Source: Fragilariopsis cylindrus CCMP1102 (lineage: Eukaryota; Bacillariophyta; Bacillariophyceae; Bacillariales; Bacillariaceae). Taken from it: a stretch of 64,000 nucleotides of DNA. Under the pieces are notes generated by a model. The model did no database searches, was not told where the DNA came from, and saw only the letters and a program-made list of their open reading frames with translations. Shown piece by piece: positions 30,105-62,404 of this stretch. The stretch covers positions 372,001-436,000 of the forward strand of contig FMBT01000305.1 of the NCBI GenBank assembly GCA_900095095.1, given 5' to 3'. Position 1 is the stretch's first letter. Every line of letters starts with the position of its first letter. The position numbers were made by a program, and so were the translations under genes.

Positions 30105-31338
30105 AAAACAACGGCAATATCAAGATGACGACGACGAAAAAAGGAAAGAAAAGAAGATAGAGTGCGAGGAACACAAGCAGAAAGCTAGAGAAGAAACGAT
30201 GGCTGTTGATATTCACGACATAGAGCAAAACAACAGGGAGACGGACCAACAATCACAGCGACAAGAAAGGACTGAAAGTGAATCAAAGGAAGAACAAGAT
30301 ACAACACAACCACAAGAAGCAACGAAAGGCTTTCTAGATCTTAAAACGCTAGCCGAGCCGTATTCCGATAACACTAAAAAGATTCTTAGAGACCTCGAGA
30401 GCAACGAAATCAGACAAGATAAAATTGAAAGGATCTTGATGCAAAATGGTATTGCCATCACCGAATGTATCGCATACGAAGAAGCCAAAGACAAAATTGC
30501 CGAGATCACAGATTCGATGAAAGAGCTGATGGCAGCAGAAATGGATTCATACACAAAGGAGAAGAAATATTTTACCCTCGAGGAACAGCTAGCTAAGTAT
30601 ACAACAGCATTGATGCTTACTGATGAGTATGCCGAAGACCAGATACGTCTAGAACAGAATTGGGAGGATTCGATTGAGAATGACAACATTGCTGCTATTC
30701 AAAAGCTTCGTTCCTATATGCCTGTTAAAATACGTCATATGACAGAAGATGAACTTGCTACTAATACAACTCCTAATGGAAAGACTCTACCTATAAAATT
30801 TGCAAGGAAGTTCAAAAGAACCAACGTCTTACAGCTCCTTAGGGTCGACCCTGATGATATTGAAAATATGCACCCATCCACACTTGAGAGTATGAGAACC
30901 ACGGGTCTCACCTTGACAGAGCGCCGAGCTATCCATGAACACTTTAAAGGAATAGTCGACAGGTGGGCAGAAAAAAAATCCGACCCATCCATGGAGAAAA
31001 AATGGCAGTGGTACCAATCGCTGAAGAGAAAATTTAGAGAGATGTTGAATGCATATTCGAATTGCGTTGAGAAGTACGGTCCTCCTGGAAATCATCAATA
31101 TGCTAAGCGGGATGACCCTGGAGGAGGCGGTTGTCCTTTATTAGGAAATCAGTGCCCGATCAAGGCAGATGCTACTATGGATTATAGTGAAGATTATGGC
31201 TACACTAAGGAGGCAGAGTATGAAAACTCGGACGGTGATAGTGTACCAAGAAGAAGTCCCCAAGAGGAAGCGTGTTTGCTTTTTTTCGGTCACAACAAAA
31301 CACATCCGCCAAATCCAAGTCTTCCGAAGCTGAGATGA
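28384..31338 (+). CDS. Large charged coiled-coil protein with hairpin repeats and a conserved C-terminal domain of unknown function
   Basis: 984 residues to the first stop. Residues about 45-115 and 140-215 are near-identical copies of a block ending in a helical hairpin (LKKKLKKVQKMLDKSTVG, then KEYKNLQKKRTDYQNQI). Residues about 230-525 are coiled coil with 42-residue repeats. Residues about 525-575 are an Asp/Ser and Glu run. Residues about 730-950 form a distinct globular domain: TTALMLTDEYAEDQ, NTTPNGKTLP, RTTGLTLTERRAIHEH, KYGPPGNH, GCPLLGNQCPIKAD. The same domain recurs immediately downstream (31.6-32.3 kb). The first stop comes 60 bp after a T7 run (31280-31286); one missing base there would carry the frame on through 31335 into the next gene, making one protein of about 1,300 residues. 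Function unknown; not recognised as a named family. Confidence 0.8.
28517..29030 (+). repeat. In-frame duplication of about 230 bp (two copies)
   Basis: 28517-28740 and 28805-29030 are highly similar at DNA level, starting CGAAATTCGAAGATAGT, and encode two copies of the Ser-rich block plus helical hairpin. Low divergence suggests a recent duplication. Confidence 0.85.
29386..29940 (+). repeat. Coding minisatellite, 126-bp period, about 4.4 copies
   Basis: Starts near 29386, 29512, 29638, 29764 and (after a small size change) 29880. Each unit encodes about 42 residues with EEARRLKKEVMEKKRI and RQRQIDNDDRKK-type segments. It builds the coiled coil of the enclosing gene. Confidence 0.85.
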
Positions 31339-32361
31339 TGGAAGAATTCCGTTGTCGTCTTCATCTGGATGCAAATGAGACTGATGTAGACACGAAGCTA
31401 CTTCGTGAATTGTCGCATTCTCATAAGCGTATCAAAACCTTGGAGAAGCAGCTTGCTTTTGCTGGCCTGAGCTCCCCGAAGAAGATATTTCGTACAGTTT
31501 CGCAAAGGCTAGGGTGTGTGATTAACAGTAGAATTGGAAAACATTGCTACAGCCATGGGGAACACAACTGACAAAAAGCTGGCTGAGCAAGAGCGCGAGT
31601 TTGGGAGACTATCGCAAGAGCTGGATAAATATAACAATGCTTTGATGTTGACGAAGGAATGGGCTCAGGAGCAGAAAGATAAAGAGCGTCAGTGGGAGAT
31701 CAATGTGTCACAAGCGAACTATGTAGCTTTGCAAAAAATTCGACGTCATATGCCTGTGGATATTCGAAACATGAGTGAGACTGCTTTATCTTCGTATTCT
31801 ACGCCAAATGGCAAGGTTCTTCCCATGTCGATCGTTAAAAAGTTCAAGAGGACTAATATTTTGATGATATTGCGCACAGATCCTGCTGATATTGAATTGA
31901 TGCATCCATCTTCAATAGAGGCAATGAGGACAACCGGTCTCACTTTAACAGAACGCCGTGCATTGCACGAGCATTTGAAGGAAACGGCTCCCAAGTGGAA
32001 GGCAATGAAAAGCGACAAATCGTGTGAGCGAAAATGGATGTGGCATGCCTCTTTGCAGAGCAAATTGAAGGAGATGATAGAACATTACGATAAACACACA
32101 GAAACTTATGGGCCTCCTGAAAATCATCCATACAAGAAACGCAACGATCCTCCTGATGGTCCCGGATGTCCACTGCTTGGTAATCAATGTCCTGTCAAGG
32201 CAGATCTATCTATATATTATAATGATGATTATGGGTTTCCAGATCAAGCAGAATACGAGAAGCAATCAGTAGCAAAGTCGAATCTATTAACAATGGATGA
32301 CATTGATAAGAGAAAACGAGAAGATGAGGCGTACTACAATGGTAGCAGTGATCATTCTTGA
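31335..32361 (+). CDS. Second copy of the conserved unknown domain (separate gene or continuation of the previous one)
   Basis: An open frame from ATG 31335 (MMEEFRCRLHLDANETD...) changes phase between about 31500 and 31560 into the frame ending at 32361. The latter encodes a domain clearly paralogous to residues 730-950 of the upstream gene: NNALMLTKEWAQEQ, YSTPNGKVLP, RTTGLTLTERRALHEH, TYGPPENHPY, GCPLLGNQCPVKAD. The start overlaps the upstream stop as ATGA, which is unusual for a nuclear gene. Loss of one base in the T7 run at 31280 and two more near AAAA/GGGG at 31538-31556 would make a single two-domain protein. Alternatively 31552 ATG starts a separate gene of about 270 residues. I cannot decide from sequence alone. 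Confidence 0.65.
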
Positions 32362-34366: not shown

Positions 34367-36058
34367 TCACCCCTTTTTTATCAATAATAATACATCTAAT
34401 TCACTTTGATATTCTTTTCTTTTCTTTTTCATCTTTTTTAATTTTTTAGGATCATCTTCCTTAGCAATAGATTTATCAGACTTACGTAGTTTTTTCTTTA
34501 AAGCTGCAATGCGTTCTTCATTTTCTTCATTGTATAATGGTTCTGGTTCTGGTTCTTCTTCCTTTTCTTCATCTTGTTCGTCATTATGTCCATTCGATGC
34601 TTCATTATCATTGCCATTCTCCTCCTCATCCTCATCCTGTTGTTTCAGTATATCTAACATCGCTTTATATTCTTTTTTCTTTTGCTTTAGTGATTCAAGT
34701 TCGTTAGGATCATCAGTAGTCGATATTAGTTTTTTCACTTTCTTTAGTTTCTTTTTTAATTTTTTTCGATCGTGTGGTACAATATATTGTTGATTTTTGT
34801 TACTCTTGCTAACGTCGCCCTCTTTTTCTTCATGTTCTTCCTCGACGAAATCTATACTATGATCACTTTCCTCTCATCTTCAGTATTTAGGTTACCCAAT
34901 AATGGTTTTGGGCTAACCAACATACCATTACCGGACTTATTTAATAATGCCTTTGTGTATTGGTCGTGTTTCTTTTTTAGTTTTTTTACTTCAATGGGAT
35001 TCAATTGGTATATTGCTTCATTACCTACTGCATGTGCTGTAAGCATCTTATTGACCTTCTTCAATTTTTTTCTTAGTGTTGACTCATCGTAATGATTAGC
35101 GTTACTGCTACCCGTAGAGATGGAAAAATACTGGCAGAACTGTTTTCGGACTTAAAACTATTATCAAGGTCTTCTGCTGGTCCTGCTGTATTTTCTCGAC
35201 TATTACTATGATTCGACAAGCTTCCGTTACTGTTATTGTGATTATTAGTATTCTTATTTTGTAGTAAAGCTTGAGTATACTGTTCTCGTTTCTTCATTAA
35301 CTTTTTTACTTGAACGGGAGACAACTGGTGTATTAATTCATTACTTACTGCGTGTGCTGTAAGTACCTTATTGACTTTCTCCAGTTTTTTTCTCAGAGTC
35401 ATCTCATCGTAATTATTGGTATTACTATTGGCTGTGGAAATAGTGAAAAGACCAATACCGGCTGACAGCGAGCTCATACTACTATTATTTGCATTTTTGC
35501 TGCTGGTATTAGGAGTCGATGTTCTTGATTCTGAATGAGAAGGAGACTCTGCGATGGGATGTAATAACGCATCATTGCTAAAACTGTTGCTGTTGTTGTT
35601 GTGATTATTGTTGCTTATATTGCGTTTTTTTACTACTTGTTTTGGCATAAAATCAGACATGGAAAAATTCAAACTTGCACAGGAACCTTCCATACCCGGT
35701 TGTTCCATAAGTGTCTCTAATGGTTCCCCAAGTAATTCATTCGGTTCAATTTCAGCCGTTTCTTCAAATAAGTCATCCGTTTCAGCATAATTCATAATTT
35801 CTTCAATTTCATTCGAATATTGAATTCTTTCTTTTGTAATTTTGCTATTATCTTCTTGTCTTTTTCCTTTGATATTAATTTGGATGTTTTCCGTAATTTC
35901 TTCTGCAGGAGTATGATCTCATCTGTTAGACCCTGATACTCTTCCCGTTTCTCAATCAATTCTTTATTGTCGTCATCTTCGTCGTCTACCGCATTATCAA
36001 GCCACGTTTCTAATAGAGCTATTCTCTCTTCGAGAAATTCAACCTCTGCAGATTTCAT
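34367..36058 (-). CDS. Protein of five KKLKK helical-hairpin repeats in low-complexity linkers
   Basis: About 564 residues once three single-base losses are allowed (near 35823 in an AA pair, near 35118 in a T5 run, and near 34864 in an AAA). Five related units occur: LQKKLRKTSKLIS...LQKK; LRKKLEKVNKVLTAHAVSNE...KKLMKKREQY; LRKKLKKVNKMLTAHAVGNE...KKLKKKHDQY; LKKKLKKVKKLIS...LKQKKKEY; and LKKKLRKSDKSIA...MKKKRKEY. Units 2 and 3 share even their leaders (LFTISTANSN and IFSISTGSSN), which shows the intended frame where the shift lies. Linkers are Asn/Ser/Glu-rich. A single-pass frame without the shifts would stop after 88 residues. The hairpin resembles the charged helical pair seen in PYM or eIF2A C-termini, a resemblance only. 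Function unknown, probably nuclear or cytosolic. Confidence 0.7.
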
Positions 36059-43859: not shown

Positions 43860-46563
43860 ATGAAGCTTTCGTCGGTTCTATTTCAACTTTTTGTCGCCGA
43901 CTTCCTCGTCGCGACGGGTGTTCGTTCGGATGAGATCCCCACCGGTACGTTCAAGGGATGCTCGACTCCATCCTTCGAATGGGTAACCTACGACACTCGC
44001 GCCACTGCAAGCTTCAAGCCAAACGGGGAGCATACGCCAATGGGTATATCTTCGCTGCTGGAATGGTTAGATCCAACATTGATACCGATGTGATGGAAGC
44101 CGATCCCGATGTCCTAGAATTGTCGCTCATCGGCCCCTTTACGGAATCCGACGGGACCGGAGCCAGCGCGACCGTGCGGAACGCCAAGCTCCAATCCTAC
44201 TCGGCATCCATTGGAGCCGCGGAAAATGCCGGGGGGTCGTGGCATCAGTACGATGTCGGCATTGCCAAAATTGACGCGAACACGGGCGAGCCAACGAACT
44301 TCTTTTCGTGGGGAGGTGATAGCTTGGAAGAGACTGCTGCTCTTGCCGCATCTGGAGACTCCATTGTCGTATCTGGTCATTTCACGGGACACTTGGCTGC
44401 TGAACTTGCGGATGGAACTACCAAGACTATTTGGAACTCCAACGTCGGCGAGGGAGGCATTGCACTCGATGAAGATCAGTTTCATCCTAATAATAAGAAC
44501 AGCCATGCGGAAACAGGTAAGCAATATACAAAATACGAACGAATAGATGTTTGTTACGTTGAAATAAAGATCGCGATCCCCCCAATGCTTTTGAAATAAT
44601 CCTAACGCACTGTGACATTAATTTTGACAAACAGGTGTGGATGATGGCTTCATTATTAAGGCTAATGCGGACACAGGTGTTGCCGACTGGATGGTCCATT
44701 ATCCTCAATCAAGTGCGGATGCTGAAATCGTATCTGTCGACTTCGATACTTCCAATAATGTCTATGGGGCAGGTTATTCTTGCTCCAAAGGAATAGAGGA
44801 CGAATTCAAGGTTTGTGACGGTGTTATCGCCATGTTTGCTTCAAGCGATGGCGAGCTCATGTGGGAGAAAGAATTTCCTGATATGGGTGCCTTTTTCGAA
44901 GTCAAGTATGATCTCGAACAAGGTGGTGCACTGTACGTGTCAGGAACGACAACCTATGGCGGATCTACAGCGGGAAATCCGAAGGATCACCCATACTGTG
45001 ACCACGATAGCTGCTCTGTCATCATGCGCCTATCGCCTACCGACGGTGAGGTACAATGGGTGCGTACTGTGAAGGGATCTCCGCGCTGGGGAATCTTTGA
45101 TCAGAAAGGTGGTCTGGAACTTGCCGTAGAGGACCTAGACGGGCCATACATTTATGTGGCAATGGATGATACAGGCGAAGGCGAGGTCGAAGTGGCATCG
45201 CTCAATACAGGCACCCCATATGGCGGTTGCTTGTCAGCAGATGGTGTGTTCACACCCGAGTACCATGTATTTCTGAAGAAGGTAGTTTCTGGACCAAGTG
45301 ATTGTCTCTTTTTCGATCCTTCTGGTAATTCTACTTTCATTAGCAGACAAGACCCAAGGGCATCTCCTGCGTCATCAGTACTCAATGATGTCAGCTGTGG
45401 AAAACAAAGTGGGAAGGATGCATGTTTGATGAAGTTTCACAAGCATACTGGTCTACCAACATGGGCTGTAGATGTTCCTCCATTATCTGGCATTGTACCA
45501 GCTCCCGATGGCGTATCTGTTTACATTTCTGGTTACTATTTTCCTGGTAGTACTCCTGTACTCTTTGACTCTGTCTCACTCCCAGGGTATCTTTTTGAAG
45601 GTGGAAAAGGATCCCAATCAGACGGTATCTTCAATGCCAAGATTTCTGCCACGGACGGAGCTGGCGAATACGTGATGCACTCTGGTGGAGGTTTCAACGA
45701 TCGTGCGATGGACCTAGTGGGGGATGCTGAGGGTAATATTTATACTATTGGATACCAGAAGAACCTGGTTATGTATTGGGGACACAATCTCAAGACGACC
45801 GTAGTGGAAACTGATGCAATAGATCCCACCAAGACCGTAGCTTCGAAAACGCATGCGCTTGTAGCAAAGATTTCGGCGTCCACCGAGTCCATCCCCACAT
45901 GTTTGACGACGTGTTCTGGCAACACCGATGAGGCCGTCATTGAATCCAACTCTTGTTTCATTGATGGCAAGTGCTATTCTGCAGGTGTCACTGGCGATCA
46001 GTTTGGGTTGTCATGCTTTCAGTGTGATCCAACTCGGGATCAGAGAAACTGGGTGGAAGCACCTTCGCTAGGAGTGACGCAGTGTTTCATTGACAAGAGA
46101 TGCTGGGAGATCGGAGAGCCTTTTTTACCAGCGCCGAACGTGGTCTGCGAAGATTGATTCGACGTGCCAGATGTGTAGCCCGGCAGACAACGCCCTGGAA
46201 TGGTCTGTGAAGGATGGATACGAAGTTGTTGCTGACAGTATTCCCCCTAATGACTGCGCTGTACCTGCAGTTGAGACTGAAGCACCTGTTCCAGCGCCTG
46301 TACCAGCACCAGTTCCTGCACCTGTGTCAGCACCATTTCAAGCGCCTGTACCAGCGCCTCCGGCTCGGATTCTGTTACGTCCAATTCTAGTAGCTCTGAT
46401 GTCGATGGTAACAAACTCGGTGGTGGTGCTATAGCTGGTATTTCTGTGGCCTCTTTGGTAGTTGTAGGTCTTATTGCTTTCCTTGTTGCTAGAAAGTCAA
46501 GGTTTGCAGGTGAAAAATTTGATGAAACCCCAGAATCCTTTGGTGGAGACGTTGTAGCATAAG
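43860..46563 (+). CDS. Type I cell-surface protein: propeller-like repeats, Cys-rich modules, Pro-rich stalk, membrane helix
   Basis: Exons 43860-44516 and 44635 onward (intron 118 bp), about 860 residues. Signal peptide MKLSSVLFQLFVADFLVATG. Residues about 30-650 contain repeated blade-like segments (VGIAKIDANTGEPTNFFSWGG, IIKANADTGVADWMVHYP, FNAKISATDGAGEYVMHSGG, LVGDAEGNIYTIGYQ) suggesting a beta-propeller. Two Cys modules follow (CFIDGKCYSAG...CFQCDP and CFIDKRCWEIG...CQMCSP) of the type found in extracellular proteins, then a (VPAP)n stalk and a helix AIAGISVASLVVVGLIAFLVA. Apparent single-base losses lie in GGGG near 44024-44027 and near 46361. The frame also changes near 46155 and about 46500, where one extra or two missing bases are needed, so the exact C-terminus (46514 or 46563) is uncertain. 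Exon 1 is visibly GC-richer than neighbouring genes. Confidence 0.75.
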
Positions 46564-47322
46564 AACGAATGGACAAATAATCTGGTTTGATATTTTACTT
46601 TGAAATCACTTGTTGGCATGCAGCCAATGCATTGCCAAGTTCCTCCCGGAATACTACCGCATCTGCAAAGTTGAAATTTTGCATTCCTCAGGTTCTGATT
46701 GAGTATTTTTCCTTTAAGTCGATAGCATTGTTCTAATGGCACGTATCCTTTCGATTCTGCCAAAGTCTGAATCCAAGGAAAGGATTGTGTGATGATCCTT
46801 GTTGTGCTTCATCTGGTATCCTTCTGCGGTTGGGTATGGTGTTCCAGTCAGGTGTAGGTATGACAGGTAACATTTACTTTGTGCTTAGCACTTGTTGTTG
46901 TTGTAGTACCTTTAATCTCTAACTATTAGAATAAATACGAATACATACAGTAGTTGTTAACGTTCTATTAGTTATTAGAGTTACAATGATGTTAGAGATT
47001 AAAGTGAGCACAGTATGTTGTTTACATCTTGCTCCTATTCTCTTGTGTGTTGTTGTTTCTTCTGTACAAAGCTATCTCCATCTATTCGGTAAAGAAGAAG
47101 GAGTCTAGTCACACGAGTCACTTACAAATAGTTCTTATAGATACACACAGATAAAGAAAAGTCGTGTAGCATGAGCAAATACGCTATTGCAGTTTTTTCT
47201 TTCTTCTTTGAAATGGATCAAGCGTCTCACTATTGTAGGCATAATTACTGTAGTTAATAGCGACACATTGTTTTAAAAGGGTAGTAAGACATGTAAAATT
47301 TCCAGTAGCGTATGAAAAATAT
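46564..47322. other. Convergent intergenic spacer
   Basis: 3' flanks of the surface-protein gene and the trefoil-CHI gene. No coding signal seen. Confidence 0.5.
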
Positions 47323-55517: not shown

Positions 55518-57846
55518 GATTTATTATTATTATTATTTATTTTTGTTATCTTTTATGCCTTATTTTGACGACACGCACAGGGGGGGGCGATATGAAAAAA
55601 TGAAGTAAGGTGTGTCGTCCCAAAATGTAGAGACGATACTTTTGGATTCGATTCGACTGAATGAGTAGTCTGGTTACTACTGAGTGGGCTGGTAGATACA
55701 AGTATTTGTACAAGTACAGCAAAAATGCAATGATTGGGATCGATCGACGATGGTGTCTATTGTAAAAAGATAGAGACGTTATTGCCGTAGGGTGTCTTAG
55801 CTAAGCATTGTCACCAGTCTTTGTCGTGGGGCATCGTGCAATTCGGTATGCTTCCAGTACCACAATCGCTACATAGTACTGTGCACACATACCTAGTACT
55901 AGTACTAGTACGCACAACGAACAAAGTACTGTACGCGCTAATTGCTAATAACGTTACAGGCAGTTTACATAGTACTGTAGTGCAGTAACTACTGTGTATG
56001 CGCAAATGGAGAACACCCACGCACAACGAGGGGCGATTTTTCAATTTGGGGGAGATGATGGTAATTTGTTTACATTGTTACTTACTCGTCTTGTGCTCCT
56101 GTACTAGAGTACTGTCTACTGTACTATAGTAGTAACAAGTGATACACAGTTGTAATTGTTTTGCTTACTAATGATACAGTGAGTATTAAAATTGTATAGG
56201 GATTTCTGTTATATCTCCTTCCCTACACACACACACACACTACTAGCTACTCAATCACACATTTTGATCATTGTAGTATAGTAATAATAGATAGTAGTTT
56301 TATAATATATCTGAAATTACAAAATAGATCTATTTTTGTTTGTCCCTTTCGCAGAATACATTAATCCATGCAACTTTTATTGTGTGTTGGACTTCACCTT
56401 GTAGATACTTGTACGTACCATAAAATATTGATGCCCAAATGGTACATCTTTCCAACAACTGTAACCCATGGCATGCCATGGCGATGGACGCGTATAGACA
56501 GGTTTCTCCCAGAATATTAAGTAGATCTTCTTCTGGAGGCTTCATTTGATAATACAATGATGTGTGCTTGTGCTTGTGCTTAGATTTGGATTTAGATCTA
56601 GATTTAGATTTAGATTTGGATTTGGATTTGGATTTGGATTTGGATTTGAATTTGGATTTGAATTTGGATTTAAGGTCGGTTGAGTTGAGTTGATTTTGCC
56701 TCCTTTGCATAGCATGAGGCAATGTGTTCAGTCAGAACTTACACATACTGTGTACCACTTGTACTCTACCTGCACTACCATCTGTTCAATCCATTGGCAA
56801 TTAATCCGTCACAGAGTTTCAATTCCACCTCTGACTTTTGAGCATTTAACATAGACACAACATACAGTACAAACATCCTGACAACATCTCAATCATGTGA
56901 GTAAAATGATTTTTCTTTATTTCTTGTGTCCAATTTTTGGCGAGCTGCCTCTGCGCGCCAAACTCGTGCGTGCTAAAACACCACGATCGCAAATGATACC
57001 AAAAAAATTAATAATTGCCGAGAATTATAGCTTAGCTTCGCTACATTCTTGATTTGTGAAATAATAAAGATTCGAATCAATCGTTGCATCATTCTTTTCC
57101 TTATTTTATTCTTGTTACTTTACGTAGCGAAATAGATCGAGTTTGTTTTGTTACCAACCAAGCTTCGATAGTGTCATATACAACAAGGTATGTATACAAG
57201 ATTAATGTGTAGCTTTATCCGATTTTCGTTGGATTTGATTTGATTTTTTCTTTGCAAGAATCATCATGATGTAATGTATGCGTTGACGCCCTTATTTGAT
57301 GCTACGTAGATTTCTACGTTAAGATACTACCAGAGCAAAAGTAGGATCGAGACACGATAATTTTTGAACTTTGCTTTGGTGCAATCGAGATTGTTTGGTT
57401 AAAGCCAGATAATGTTATAATGTAGTGTACCTCCTATACACTCCGAAAGATGATCACGTCATTTTCGTTTTCATTTTTAAAACCTGATACACATTTATTA
57501 TCTATCGGAAGCAAATAATGATCTCTACAATTGTTTTTAATTTGCATAATTTTCTCAATAGTGACACGTATTTCTCATTTCAATCAATCTCCTTTTCTTC
57601 TTCTTCTTTTTCACGGAATTTCTCTTTCGACTCTCATCATACTCAGATCTCATACTAGATCACTACGAACACAGATAACTATATTGTACTCGTTGCCGTG
57701 TCAAAAATAACAGGTGGATTGGCTGAGTCGTAGAAATCCATTTAATTTAATTCAATTCAATTAATTTGTATATAAACAATACATCCGCAACGCACAGATA
57801 TAAATACAAACAAACAATCAATATAAATACAAACATACAATCAACA
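55518..57846. other. Long intergenic region with microsatellites
   Basis: Contains a G8 run near 55581, short CTAGTA repeats at about 55890-55910, an AC run at 56224-56240 and a GATTTG-type hexamer array at about 56586-56665. The last kilobase should hold the promoter of the MYB-HDAC gene. Confidence 0.6.
56330..56722 (-). CDS. Doubtful small open frame with a Lys-Ser array, 130 residues
   Basis: An open frame whose N-terminal half is (Lys-Ser)n encoded by the hexamer microsatellite at 56586-56665. The second half (EEDLLNILGETCLYASIAMAC, ERCTIWASIFYGTYKYL) is non-repetitive and could be a real small protein. No family recognised. It may simply be a frame opened by the microsatellite. Confidence 0.3.
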   Translation of the reverse strand: MPHAMQRRQNQLNSTDLKSKFKSKFKSKSKSKSKSKSKSKSRSKSKSKHKHKHTSLYYQMKPPEEDLLNILGETCLYASIAMACHGLQLLERCTIWASIFYGTYKYLQGEVQHTIKVAWINVFCERDKQK

Positions 57847-60800
57847 ATGGGTGAGCCAGATAGTTACTTTGATTACGATCCGGACAATCATAATGATAAT
57901 AATATCAATGCATCCTCAGAAGAAACAACTAAACAACATACGCAGTTTTTAGATTTGACGAATGGTACAGGTGGTGTCGGGGAGAGCATAGGATTGTCGA
58001 TGGCATATAACGATGACGATAATTACGGAATATCCAATGATGATGATAATAACGATACTATGATTGGTGGTGATAGTACCAGTTTAAATAGTATTTCTGC
58101 ACCGCCCGACTTATTTTCATCGATGAACAACACATCAACGATTCAACATTCATCGATTACTCTTCCTAGTATTGGCGGTATCAGTAGTGCCGTTGGGGGT
58201 GGGGGTGAAATTATGATGATTATATTGATGCTGCAATTACTGGTGGAGGTGAAGGATTATTAAAACTTGATCCTAGTCCATTAGGAAGAGTTGTAGAAAC
58301 AGGTCACGAACATACCGGCCGGTGGACGAAGGAGGAACATGATGCCTTCCTTAGTGGACTTAAGATGTATGGGAAGGAATGGAAAAAGGTTGCAGCTAAG
58401 GTTAAAACAAGGACAGTCGTTCAGACTCGTACCCATGCACAGAAATATTTTCAAAAATTATCCAAGGCAACGGAAGGAAAAGAAGGTGCAACAAGGTTCA
58501 AATGGGAACAGCATCCGATTCTAAGAAAGGTGGCAATAGTAGTAGTGGTGGTTCTGCCTCGAAGAAAAAACATCGGATAGTGACGACGGCGGCAATGACA
58601 CCATCTTTGTCAATTACGACTCCTTGTCGATAACAACGACGATACCATCTATATTAGATAAGATTTCGAGGACAACTAGTGTCGCATCTGCCGCTCAAGT
58701 TATATCGACATTGTCAGGACAGAGACATCTAAATAATAATATTACCGGTACACTTCCATCATTGTCTTTCGGTCGACCATTAGAAGCATCCCCACCGTCT
58801 CCATCTAGAAGTCATGGTTTTCATCAGACATCGGATGCAGTTGGTATTGGTACAATGAATAATAATTTATCGCACCAAGCAGCAGATCGGGGTGGTATGT
58901 TTCAACCGACCCATGGATTTTCAAGCTCCTTTGCTACAACAACTAGTGCATTCAATAATAATGAATCATTAAATCCAACAGCATCTTCAGTGAAATCATC
59001 TTCTATTATTGGTACCAAGGCATTCCCTAGTAGCATGAAGATTATCGCACCAGATCATGATTCGGCAATAAAACGAGGCAAGTTCCCAGAACCATCACCT
59101 GCCGCCTGTGGAAAACGAAAGTTAGCAGAAATTGCTGCAGCTCGTATGTTGGCAGGTGTACTAGCGTCGGAACCATTACTACCACCACAGTCGTCGTCGT
59201 CGCAATCCTTTTCCGATGATAGGAATATTACTATGCAGCAGCAGCAATCATCTATGTTGAATCCTTTCAGTAGTAGTAGAGATACATTGACTGCTGCTGT
59301 TGCTAATCATATGGATCACCGTGATCGTAATAATCCATTTGGTAACATCGATGATATCGATGATGGGATGGCAACACCACCTCCAGAAGAAGTAGAAGGA
59401 AACAATAATATTGGAGCTGCTCAATCAACCAGTGCTACTGCTAGTTTCGAAATGTCAAAGATACCTAAGCAACAGGGCGTCGTCGGAGGAACTAGCACCA
59501 ACATCAACAACACCACTACTCCAAGAAAGCCAATGGGACTATCATTACAAATTGTTAATCCAGAATCACTAGGAATTTCTCATGAAGAAATAGCAAAACG
59601 AAAAAAGGATGGGAATTTGTCTCCCCAAACTCCGTGGGAAGGTCAACTTCAAGCTTTAGTAAGGTAAGATATTCTCTAACTTCGACGGGAATGTAAAATT
59701 TTGACTTGCTTGTTACCATCCAATGTATAAGAACATCTGATATGATATGCATATGAACTAACTCACACGCAAACAACAACTGCTGCTGCCTTAATCGTGA
59801 TGGATGAACCAATCGATTCCCAATCAGCGAGGAGGAGAAGCGTAAAGGACCAACGCAAGAGACGACCACTGTAGGCCTACCGAATGCACCAGGAATGGGG
59901 GTACTTGATATGCCTGTAGTAAACTCTTCCGTACATCCTATTTGCGGTCCTGGTTCAGGATTTGGACGGAGTATCCTTCACAAAGCTGTATGTGATATTG
60001 ATATTTTTACGCTTCAAAGTCAACTCTCATCACGGCCTGACAATTTTGATCGTCGAGATGAAAAGGGATATTGTCCAATTCATTCAGCTTGTGCGTTATG
60101 CATGAAAGATCCAATGAATTCTATCCGGACGACTGAAATTGTGCGAATGCTAATCGCTGCTGGTACCGATGCATCTATTCGTGATCTAGAAGGGAACACA
60201 CCTCTTCATTGGGCAGCTCGAGCTGGAGATAAAGCAACAGTAGAACTGCTGCTTGTTAAAAACAACCCAAAAGGTAAGATTAAATTTATGATAATGACAC
60301 GTAAAGAGATATGCAAAGTAAACGTGTAGAAAGCATATGCACAAAATGGATCTCATTTTCAATATCATTCTTTCCGCTCCTTTTTCTTTTTTGCATTCTT
60401 CAAATCATATATTTAACATAATTTGTTCAGATGCAAAGAATGAACGCGGAGAAACACCATTGCATTGGGCCATGCGTTCTGGACGACTAGGAATCCCAGT
60501 TGCATCCATCTTACTAGAAAATGGTGCTCGGCCATCTGTTTGGAATACTAGCTTCAAACGACCGATAGATGTTGCTGCTGATGGGTTTTTCGATGAGTCC
60601 GATCCGGTGATGGAACTTAGATCCCTAGACGAGAAAAAGAAGAAACTGAAGAAAGAGCAGAAACAGAGACTACGCGAAGCTACCGTGGAGACGAAAGAGG
60701 CACGTGCAAATCTATTTGACTGTTCTCCCCAATCAAGAACTCTTCTCTTGTACCATCCTGAATGCCTAGAGCATATTCCAAAAGCAGAAGGTGACTGGGA

Positions 60801-62404
60801 AAATCCGAATCGTATAATCAGTATAATGGAACGAATTCAAGGGAATCATGAAAATTCTGGTGCTCCGTCAATATACCCTCGTGAGATACAAATTTCACAA
60901 GAATTTGAACGTGCAAAACTTGATCTATTGAGTCGGGTTCACAGCACCGAATATCTCAATTTCGTTAACGAATTAAGCAAAGATCTAGAGCGACAGCACA
61001 AAGCTCAAAATGGCAGTGACGATTCTGATGATAATTGTGGAACCCCTCCTGTTGTCCCGTTCACCCCAATGGTAAGATCTTATTCTTTTTGTCATAATGT
61101 ATTCCGAGGTTTTGTTCCTATTTATTATAGTATAATCTTACCATAGCTCTTCTCTATTCTTTGACTTGTTCAGGTACAAAGGTCTATGATAAAAGAAATC
61201 CAAGAATCACATGTAAAAATTGGTGAACATTCCGACACTTCTTTCAGTGCAGGCTCGTTACGAGCAGCTCGTAGGGCTGCCGGAGCAGTACAGCACGCCG
61301 TTGACTGGTAAGGTTTTGTTTGCATTTATTTCTGAGATGATTTGATCCATTTGTTACTTTTATCTGGTTTCATCTCACTCCTTTTTCATATATATCAAAT
61401 ATTTTAGCGTTCTTGTCGGAAGACACCGAAATGCATTTTGTATTGTTCGACCACCGGGTCATCATGCTGGTATTAATGGTTTATTGGACGGCGGAGAATC
61501 TTGCGGTTTTTGTATATTCAACAGTGTCGCTGCTGGTGCCATGCATGCCATTTCTAACGAGCGATTGATGTGTGAACGCTGTGCCATCGTCGATTTTGAT
61601 GCTCACCACGGGAATGGTACTGAAGAAATCGTTCGGAAATGCCATGACCCGGGAAAATTATTCTTCTTTTCTATTCATGTTTACGATAATGATAAAAAAG
61701 GAAAGCGTGAATCGAAATCTTTTCAATATAAGTTTTATCCTGGAACTGGAGATGAGGATGATCTCCCTCTAAATATTATCAATGTTCCGATCACTCCACT
61801 ATGGAAGGAAGGAAACCAAACTCCCGTTCAAAGGGAACACAACACTCGTCATCGAACTCGGAATCGAGGAAGTCAAAGTGACGACGGAAGCTCATCAGAA
61901 ACTGGAACTCCAAGAGTTAGCGATGCTGAAGTTGAATCAAGGATAAGGTCGAGGGCGTCCTCTCCCGTCCCGTTCAATGCAAACGCACCGGGGGGACGCA
62001 TTGCATATAGAAATTCAATTCAGAATAGATTACTGCCTGCTCTAAGAGCTTTTAATCCTGATCTGATCCTGATAAGTGCAGGGTTTGACGCTTGTAAGGG
62101 TGATGTGGGGAATGCTAAACATGAGATGGGTGGAAAAGAGAAAATGGGTATTGATCTTGAGCCGGAGGATTATGCATGGACGACCCGCAAAATTCTTGAG
62201 ATTGCTGATATATGTTGCCAAGGCCGCGTTGTGTCCGTCCTGGAGGGTGGATACGGTAGACATAGCACCTCAGGGGTTCATGATCCCACAGAACCACTCG
62301 ATAAATCTATTTTCAGTGAATGTGCGATACGACATGCTCATGCCATGATCGATCCGTACGATGCCGAAGGAAGGTTTGGATCTTCTTCACAAAAGAGCAA
62401 GTAA
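57847..62404 (+). CDS. SHAQKYF-type MYB + ankyrin repeats + class II histone deacetylase, apparent fusion
   Basis: Exons 57847-59663, 59828-60273, 60431-61071, 61174-61307 and 61408-62404; about 1,345 residues if three single lost bases are allowed (AAA at 58208-58210, near 58495, and CC near 58622). The N-terminus is Asp/Asn-rich. A single MYB repeat follows (58319-58455; GRWTKEEHDAFLSGLKMYG, then RTHAQKYFQKLSK), then a Ser/Asn-rich 400-residue linker, ankyrin repeats (RSILHKAV, YCPIHSAC, NTPLHWAARAGDKATVELLL, ETPLHWAMRSG) and a deacetylase domain. The latter keeps RPPGHHAG, the zinc ligands in VDFDAHHGNGT and SAGFDAC, and VLEGGYG. All four introns are in phase. If real, it tethers a zinc deacetylase to DNA through its own MYB domain. 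The alternative is a MYB gene abutting an ankyrin-HDAC gene, but no stop-promoter gap is evident between them. Confidence 0.8.

Follow-up and report, generated by a model that had tools for sequence, protein, structure and literature searches.

The plus strand of the window analysed here (the whole 64,000-nucleotide stretch, C384:372001-436000 of a 67.9-Mb, 818-contig assembly) probably carries at 57847-62404 a single gene in which a MYB repeat, ankyrin repeats and a histone deacetylase (HDAC) are fused; we put the probability of this gene-level fusion at roughly 0.7. The best explanation of the locus is a product of about 1340 residues with the order MYB (SHAQKYF class), Ser/Asn-rich linker, ankyrin repeats and class II-like zinc deacetylase, and a single transcript would be expected to carry all three domains. 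Given the order of the domains, canonical introns that keep the phase and coding signal with hardly a break, a boundary between genes is difficult to place, and the fusion proposed in the first-pass annotation is retained; the frame changes in its upstream part can be counted and explained in more than one way. The evidence comes from one locus in one diatom species; the assembly is assigned to a diatom by its silicon transporter genes (PF03842, 27 rows), a family that exceeded the cut-off in 0 of 14 control genomes.

The translation of 58212-58577 contains a MYB repeat at residues 36-80 (PF00249, 49 bits) that belongs to the SHAQKYF class (NCBIfam TIGR01557 myb_SHAQKYF, 41.7 bits, cut-off 29.3). 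The solved structure closest to this repeat is PDB 6nvz (E 3.7e-13), a SHAQKYF protein whose source is Entamoeba according to the accessible text of PMC8854648. The C-terminal part, when spliced, matches Ank_2 (63.1 bits) and Hist_deacetyl (199.9 bits, cut-off 27.9, profile positions 3-287 of 298), with the ankyrin repeats lying N-terminal to the HDAC domain in the same frame. The three domains that had been reported in one run of sequence are indeed present there. The catalytic exon contains the motifs PPGHHA, DFDAHHG, AGFDA (preceded by an insert) and GGYG, all of which line up with HDAC6. We take these to be the catalytic His pair, the zinc ligands and the catalytic Tyr; on that assignment the zinc ligands claimed at first reading are in place, and the enzyme, judged by its alignment to HDAC6, looks catalytically competent. 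Solved matches of the catalytic part include HDAC6, chain 5ji5, HDAC15, HDAC4 and Clr3 among the best, and class I enzymes are absent from the names in the best 60 of 68 such matches and in the 41 of a second structure comparison; the domain looks like a class II-like zinc deacetylase. Basic patches in the linker look, by eye, like nuclear signals.

Table 1. Predicted features of the MYB-ankyrin-HDAC gene, in window positions (a slash marks an exon/intron border).
Feature	Position	Strand	Basis or remark
ATG and acidic/Asn-rich N-terminal coding stretch	57847..58207	+	Codon use, HMM
MYB-bearing frame	58209..58500	+	Codon scores, HMM; right-hand limit uncertain, models place it between 58493 and 58546
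SHAQKYF-class MYB repeat, spelled THAQKYF	58317..58451	+	PF00249, TIGR01557, 6nvz match
Lys/Ser/Gly-rich stretch in third frame, valid if the two-deletion version is right	58503..58620	+	
Ser/Asn/Thr-rich linker with basic patches (by eye)	58622..59663	+	Open frame from 58546
Intron 1, AAG/GTAAGA ... CCAATCAG	59664..59827	+	Linker to ankyrin exon, in phase
Ankyrin exon	59828..60273	+	Ankyrin match about 59976-60263; Ank_2 42.2 bits, Ank 45.9 bits
Intron 2, AAG/GTAAGA ... TTGTTCAG	60274..60430	+	In-phase splice model
Exon spanning the last ankyrin repeat, a charged stretch and the beginning of the HDAC domain (about 60799)	60431..61071	+	
Intron 3, GTAAGA ... TTGTTCAG	61072..61173	+	In-phase splice model
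Short HDAC exon	61174..61307	+	In phase when spliced; inside continuous HDAC match
Intron 4, GTAAGG ... TATTTTAG	61308..61407	+	In-phase splice model
Catalytic HDAC exon and stop codon (62402-62404)	61408..62404	+	Hist_deacetyl 155.5 bits; HDAC6 alignment

Coding continuity was assessed with a codon HMM whose training set was 5580 codons from other genes of the window, the MYB-ankyrin-HDAC gene being left out, and reversed sequence served as the control. This model treats 57849-59659 as a single coding run whose frame breaks twice, and when frame breaks are forbidden it places just 5 bp and 12 bp of non-coding sequence in that interval; its call for the N-terminal part is 57849-58213, and the short HDAC exon received no call of its own. 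Codon scores across the scored blocks of 57847-59663 are positive in exactly one frame, which switches at about 58208, 58500 and 58620. The N-terminal stretch has coding-like codon use in a frame with 0 stops, against 21 and 6 stops in the other two. The Lys/Ser/Gly-rich stretch scores positive in its sole stop-free frame. The linker is one open frame (58546-59664) with coding-like codon use and 0 stops in both scored blocks (58622-58851 and 58852-59663), its score being positive before as well as after its first ATG (58855).

How these frames are joined can be modelled in more than one way. The passage from the N-terminal stretch to the MYB frame (about 58208) needs one frame change in the models scored. 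From MYB to linker, two missing bases (-1923.6 nats) and one extra base (-1920.7 nats; this version makes no use of 58503..58620) fit about equally well, and since the single indel fits slightly better than the pair, three missing bases are not the only solution. The three single missing bases of the first-pass annotation are therefore one of several versions that fit. Breaks of frame also occur elsewhere in the window: the HMM places 15 in the 42.7 kb that it calls coding, 2 of them in the MYB-ankyrin-HDAC gene and 13 in other places, and the reversed window gives 0 breaks with 6.5 kb called coding. Several of the HMM breaks in the window lie in clusters, at 34874-35919 (34874, 35105 and 35919), 46142-46366 and 31249-31526, and the window's other genes need the same caution over frame breaks.

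We regard the frame changes as probable indels of the assembly. Among 84 rows of conserved families, reading of the rows found abutting or overlapping frames at 8 places (TCP1, 3 places in 22 rows; HSP70, 2 in 35; silicon transporters, PF03842, 3 in 27). Another HDAC gene, class I-like by eye, is a 294 aa open frame on contig C182 and is split on its allele on C301, where the alignment of the two has one base missing in frame; this pair is direct evidence that the assembly contains either an indel error or an allele that is broken. Several regions of the assembly are present twice as near-identical haplotigs, and the counterpart of the window, C54, differs from it at one base within the MYB-ankyrin-HDAC gene (58970, read as Leu to Ser) and retains the same frame changes. 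Being common to C384 and C54, the changes did not arise at random in a single contig, and one has to suppose an error that is shared or systematic; an error common to both haplotigs is possible if both were assembled from the same reads. Two or three frame changes in about 415 bp are dense against the window's own error rate. The two haplotigs are 99.6% identical over the 20 kb compared, yet strongly different at window positions 46684-46794.

Intron 1 ties the MYB and linker part to the ankyrin and HDAC part, and it is consequently the feature that decides the claim of fusion. All four introns of the strongest-site model are GT-AG, in phase and have GTAAG donors, and the frame is open to the stop at 62402-62404, which bears out the statement that the ankyrin and HDAC exons are joined in phase; this combination of sites gives 1111 residues counted from 58546. 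Within the ranges tried, five splice-site combinations are open to that stop, and introns 2-4 are common to them all; only intron 1 varies, four further donor/acceptor pairs there also keeping the frame open. The 9-mer at the intron 1 donor, AAGGTAAGA (AAG/GTAAGA), occurs twice on the plus strand and 0 times on the minus strand of the window, and both copies are those of introns 1 and 2 of this gene. Taken singly, the exon that follows intron 2 gives an Ank match of 21.9 bits (cut-off 21.1) and a Hist_deacetyl match of 18.9 bits, under the cut-off of 27.9.

The most direct challenge to the fusion makes intron 1 an intergenic space, with a SHAQKYF MYB factor whose long Ser/Asn tail ends at TAA 59665-59667 and a separate ankyrin-HDAC gene that begins at about ATG 59895. 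Read unspliced, the linker frame does reach that TAA at the donor itself, where a MYB gene could therefore end; in the ankyrin frame the last upstream stop is at 59805 and the next ATG at 59895, the space between linker and ankyrin exon is AT-rich, and the accessible text of PMC5112689 describes oomycete ankyrin-HDACs with no reported MYB. However, the stop sits exactly within a strong donor, and splicing from this donor to the in-phase acceptor yields a 164 bp intron similar in length to intron 2 (157 bp). Coding-like sequence, which the HMM calls from 59809, precedes any usable ATG, and a mere 227 bp (59668-59894) would have to house both the 3′ end of one gene and the promoter of the next. 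We consider a border at this place unlikely, although it is the foremost of the competing explanations.

A border could instead be sought near 58580, between MYB and linker, in which case the linker would be the long disordered N-terminus of the ankyrin-HDAC protein. The MYB frame ends at TAG 58578-58580, frame changes are located in this part, and a freely placed gap of at least 100 bp (58536-58656, start and stop codons not required) lies just 5.9 nats below two indels; but when a real stop and a real new ATG (58855) are required the deficit grows to 23.8 nats, the linker frame is coding-like for ~77 codons ahead of that ATG, and the gap is 12 bp once frame breaks are forbidden, all of which makes such a border very improbable. 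Alternatively, the fusion could be real and the frame changes genuine, the gene being a decaying copy or containing unusual small introns. GT-AG and GC-AG pairs >=40 bp (at least 40 bp) apart were scanned for introns that join the frames (donors 58440-58579 with acceptors below 59000, and donors 57900-58212 with acceptors below 58316); no joining candidate has a GTAAG, GTATG or GTGAG donor, and the best of them is a weak rival. This is 58486-58564, with the weak donor AAG/GTGCAA, which would restore the frame from MYB to linker and scores below the two-indel version by 5.1 nats and below the one-indel version by 8.0 nats. Genuine changes would also account for the frame state common to both haplotigs. 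Against them, the four other introns of the gene use GTAAG, a second weak intron would be required between the N-terminal stretch and MYB, and the MYB core is intact; we find this explanation highly doubtful. With penalties of only 5.9 and 5.1 nats, the border lacking start and stop codons and the weak intron are both disfavoured, and a single gene with assembly indels is the reading we prefer.

Both halves of the preferred fusion have known relatives. Rider and Zhu reportedly described in 2009 an ankyrin-repeat histone deacetylase in Cryptosporidium, with relatives in photosynthetic eukaryotes. By its description that protein likewise joins ankyrin repeats to a deacetylase, and the descriptions consulted name no MYB domain. 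The accessible text of PMC5112689 reports class II HDACs with 3-4 ANK repeats from oomycetes, which are likewise stramenopiles; these share the pairing of a class II enzyme with ankyrin repeats, and a MYB domain is not named (a word search of that text for "myb" gave none). The same text reports oomycete PHD - two AP2 - HDAC - Med27 proteins, which are likewise deacetylases with predicted DNA-binding domains of their own, but they have AP2 and PHD in place of MYB and ankyrin and so represent a different fusion. As ankyrin-HDACs and AP2-bearing HDACs have already been described, there is no novelty in joining ankyrin repeats to an HDAC, nor in an HDAC that has a DNA-binding domain of its own. 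The initial view that no named family has this order therefore needs narrowing: it holds for the full MYB-ankyrin-HDAC order as far as the search went, whereas the ankyrin-HDAC half is a described family (the protein of Rider and Zhu and the oomycete class II enzymes). Likewise, the idea of a deacetylase with its own DNA-binding domain is already in print (PMC5112689), and the MYB version is what appears to be unreported. Among the matches listed in the literature searched, part of it as partial texts, no MYB-HDAC fusion was found, and within that scope the addition of MYB to an ankyrin-HDAC appears to be a new combination. Counts of MYB-SHAQKYF proteins in algae are given in the accessible part of PMC4827209.

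The single-repeat SHAQKYF MYB factors, of which 6nvz is an example, have the same repeat as the diatom protein. Class II enzymes of the HDAC6, HDAC4, HDA1 and Clr3 type are among the best solved relatives of its catalytic part, and no MYB appears in the molecule names among the matches listed. Enzymes of that type generally reach DNA through partners.

Within the diatom genome, the closest MYB stretches elsewhere (contigs C651 and C89) are 65% and 56% identical to that of the fusion, and the open frames of these two loci (L029 and L030) show, by eye, no HDAC or ankyrin. L030, on C89, is an 864-aa open frame in which a related MYB, SHAQKYF-like, lies between long flanks of low complexity. A motif that it seemed to share after the MYB repeat was rejected, with a shuffle p of 0.014 for the first stretch and 0.203 for the whole length (0.921 for L029). 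Genome searches with the linker at E 0.001 and E 10 found no paralogue besides the allele, a search with the join of linker and ankyrin returned the locus itself and its allele and nothing further, and the ankyrin/HDAC exon as query gave no second ankyrin-HDAC beyond the allele. A scan of genome contigs gave 33 pattern matches, one of them a bacterial deacetylase-like locus, and no orthologue was confirmed in the viral-contig scans.

To our knowledge, most deacetylases are thought to reach genes via bound partners. SHAQKYF MYBs favour GATA-like or TATCC-like cores. We lean slightly toward the idea that the diatom protein is a one-piece repressor, in which a flexible tether connects a sequence-reading MYB repeat to a class II HDAC coupled to ankyrin repeats, and whose targets should be readable from the MYB site. 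As predicted from the domains, the MYB repeat would dock on a short DNA site, the long linker would give reach to nearby nucleosomes, and the HDAC would strip acetyl groups from nucleosomes near the MYB site, while the ankyrin repeats might hold a partner or assist the catalytic domain; the protein would then be a gene-specific repressor that carries a deacetylase of its own to the sites it binds. According to the accessible text of a review that cites Rider and Zhu (PMC2942773), enzymatic function has been shown to depend on ankyrin repeats. If it acts in this way, the diatom protein would be a parallel in nature to engineered targeted repressors, the targets of a diatom HDAC could be mapped directly by the MYB site alone, and MYB would be added to the domains known to be joined to HDACs in stramenopiles.

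Two short repeats lie upstream of the gene. A 6-bp unit, GATTTG, forms a tandem array of 14.8 copies at window positions 56583-56671, and a 23-bp unit is present in two copies (95% match) at 57798-57844, directly before the ATG.
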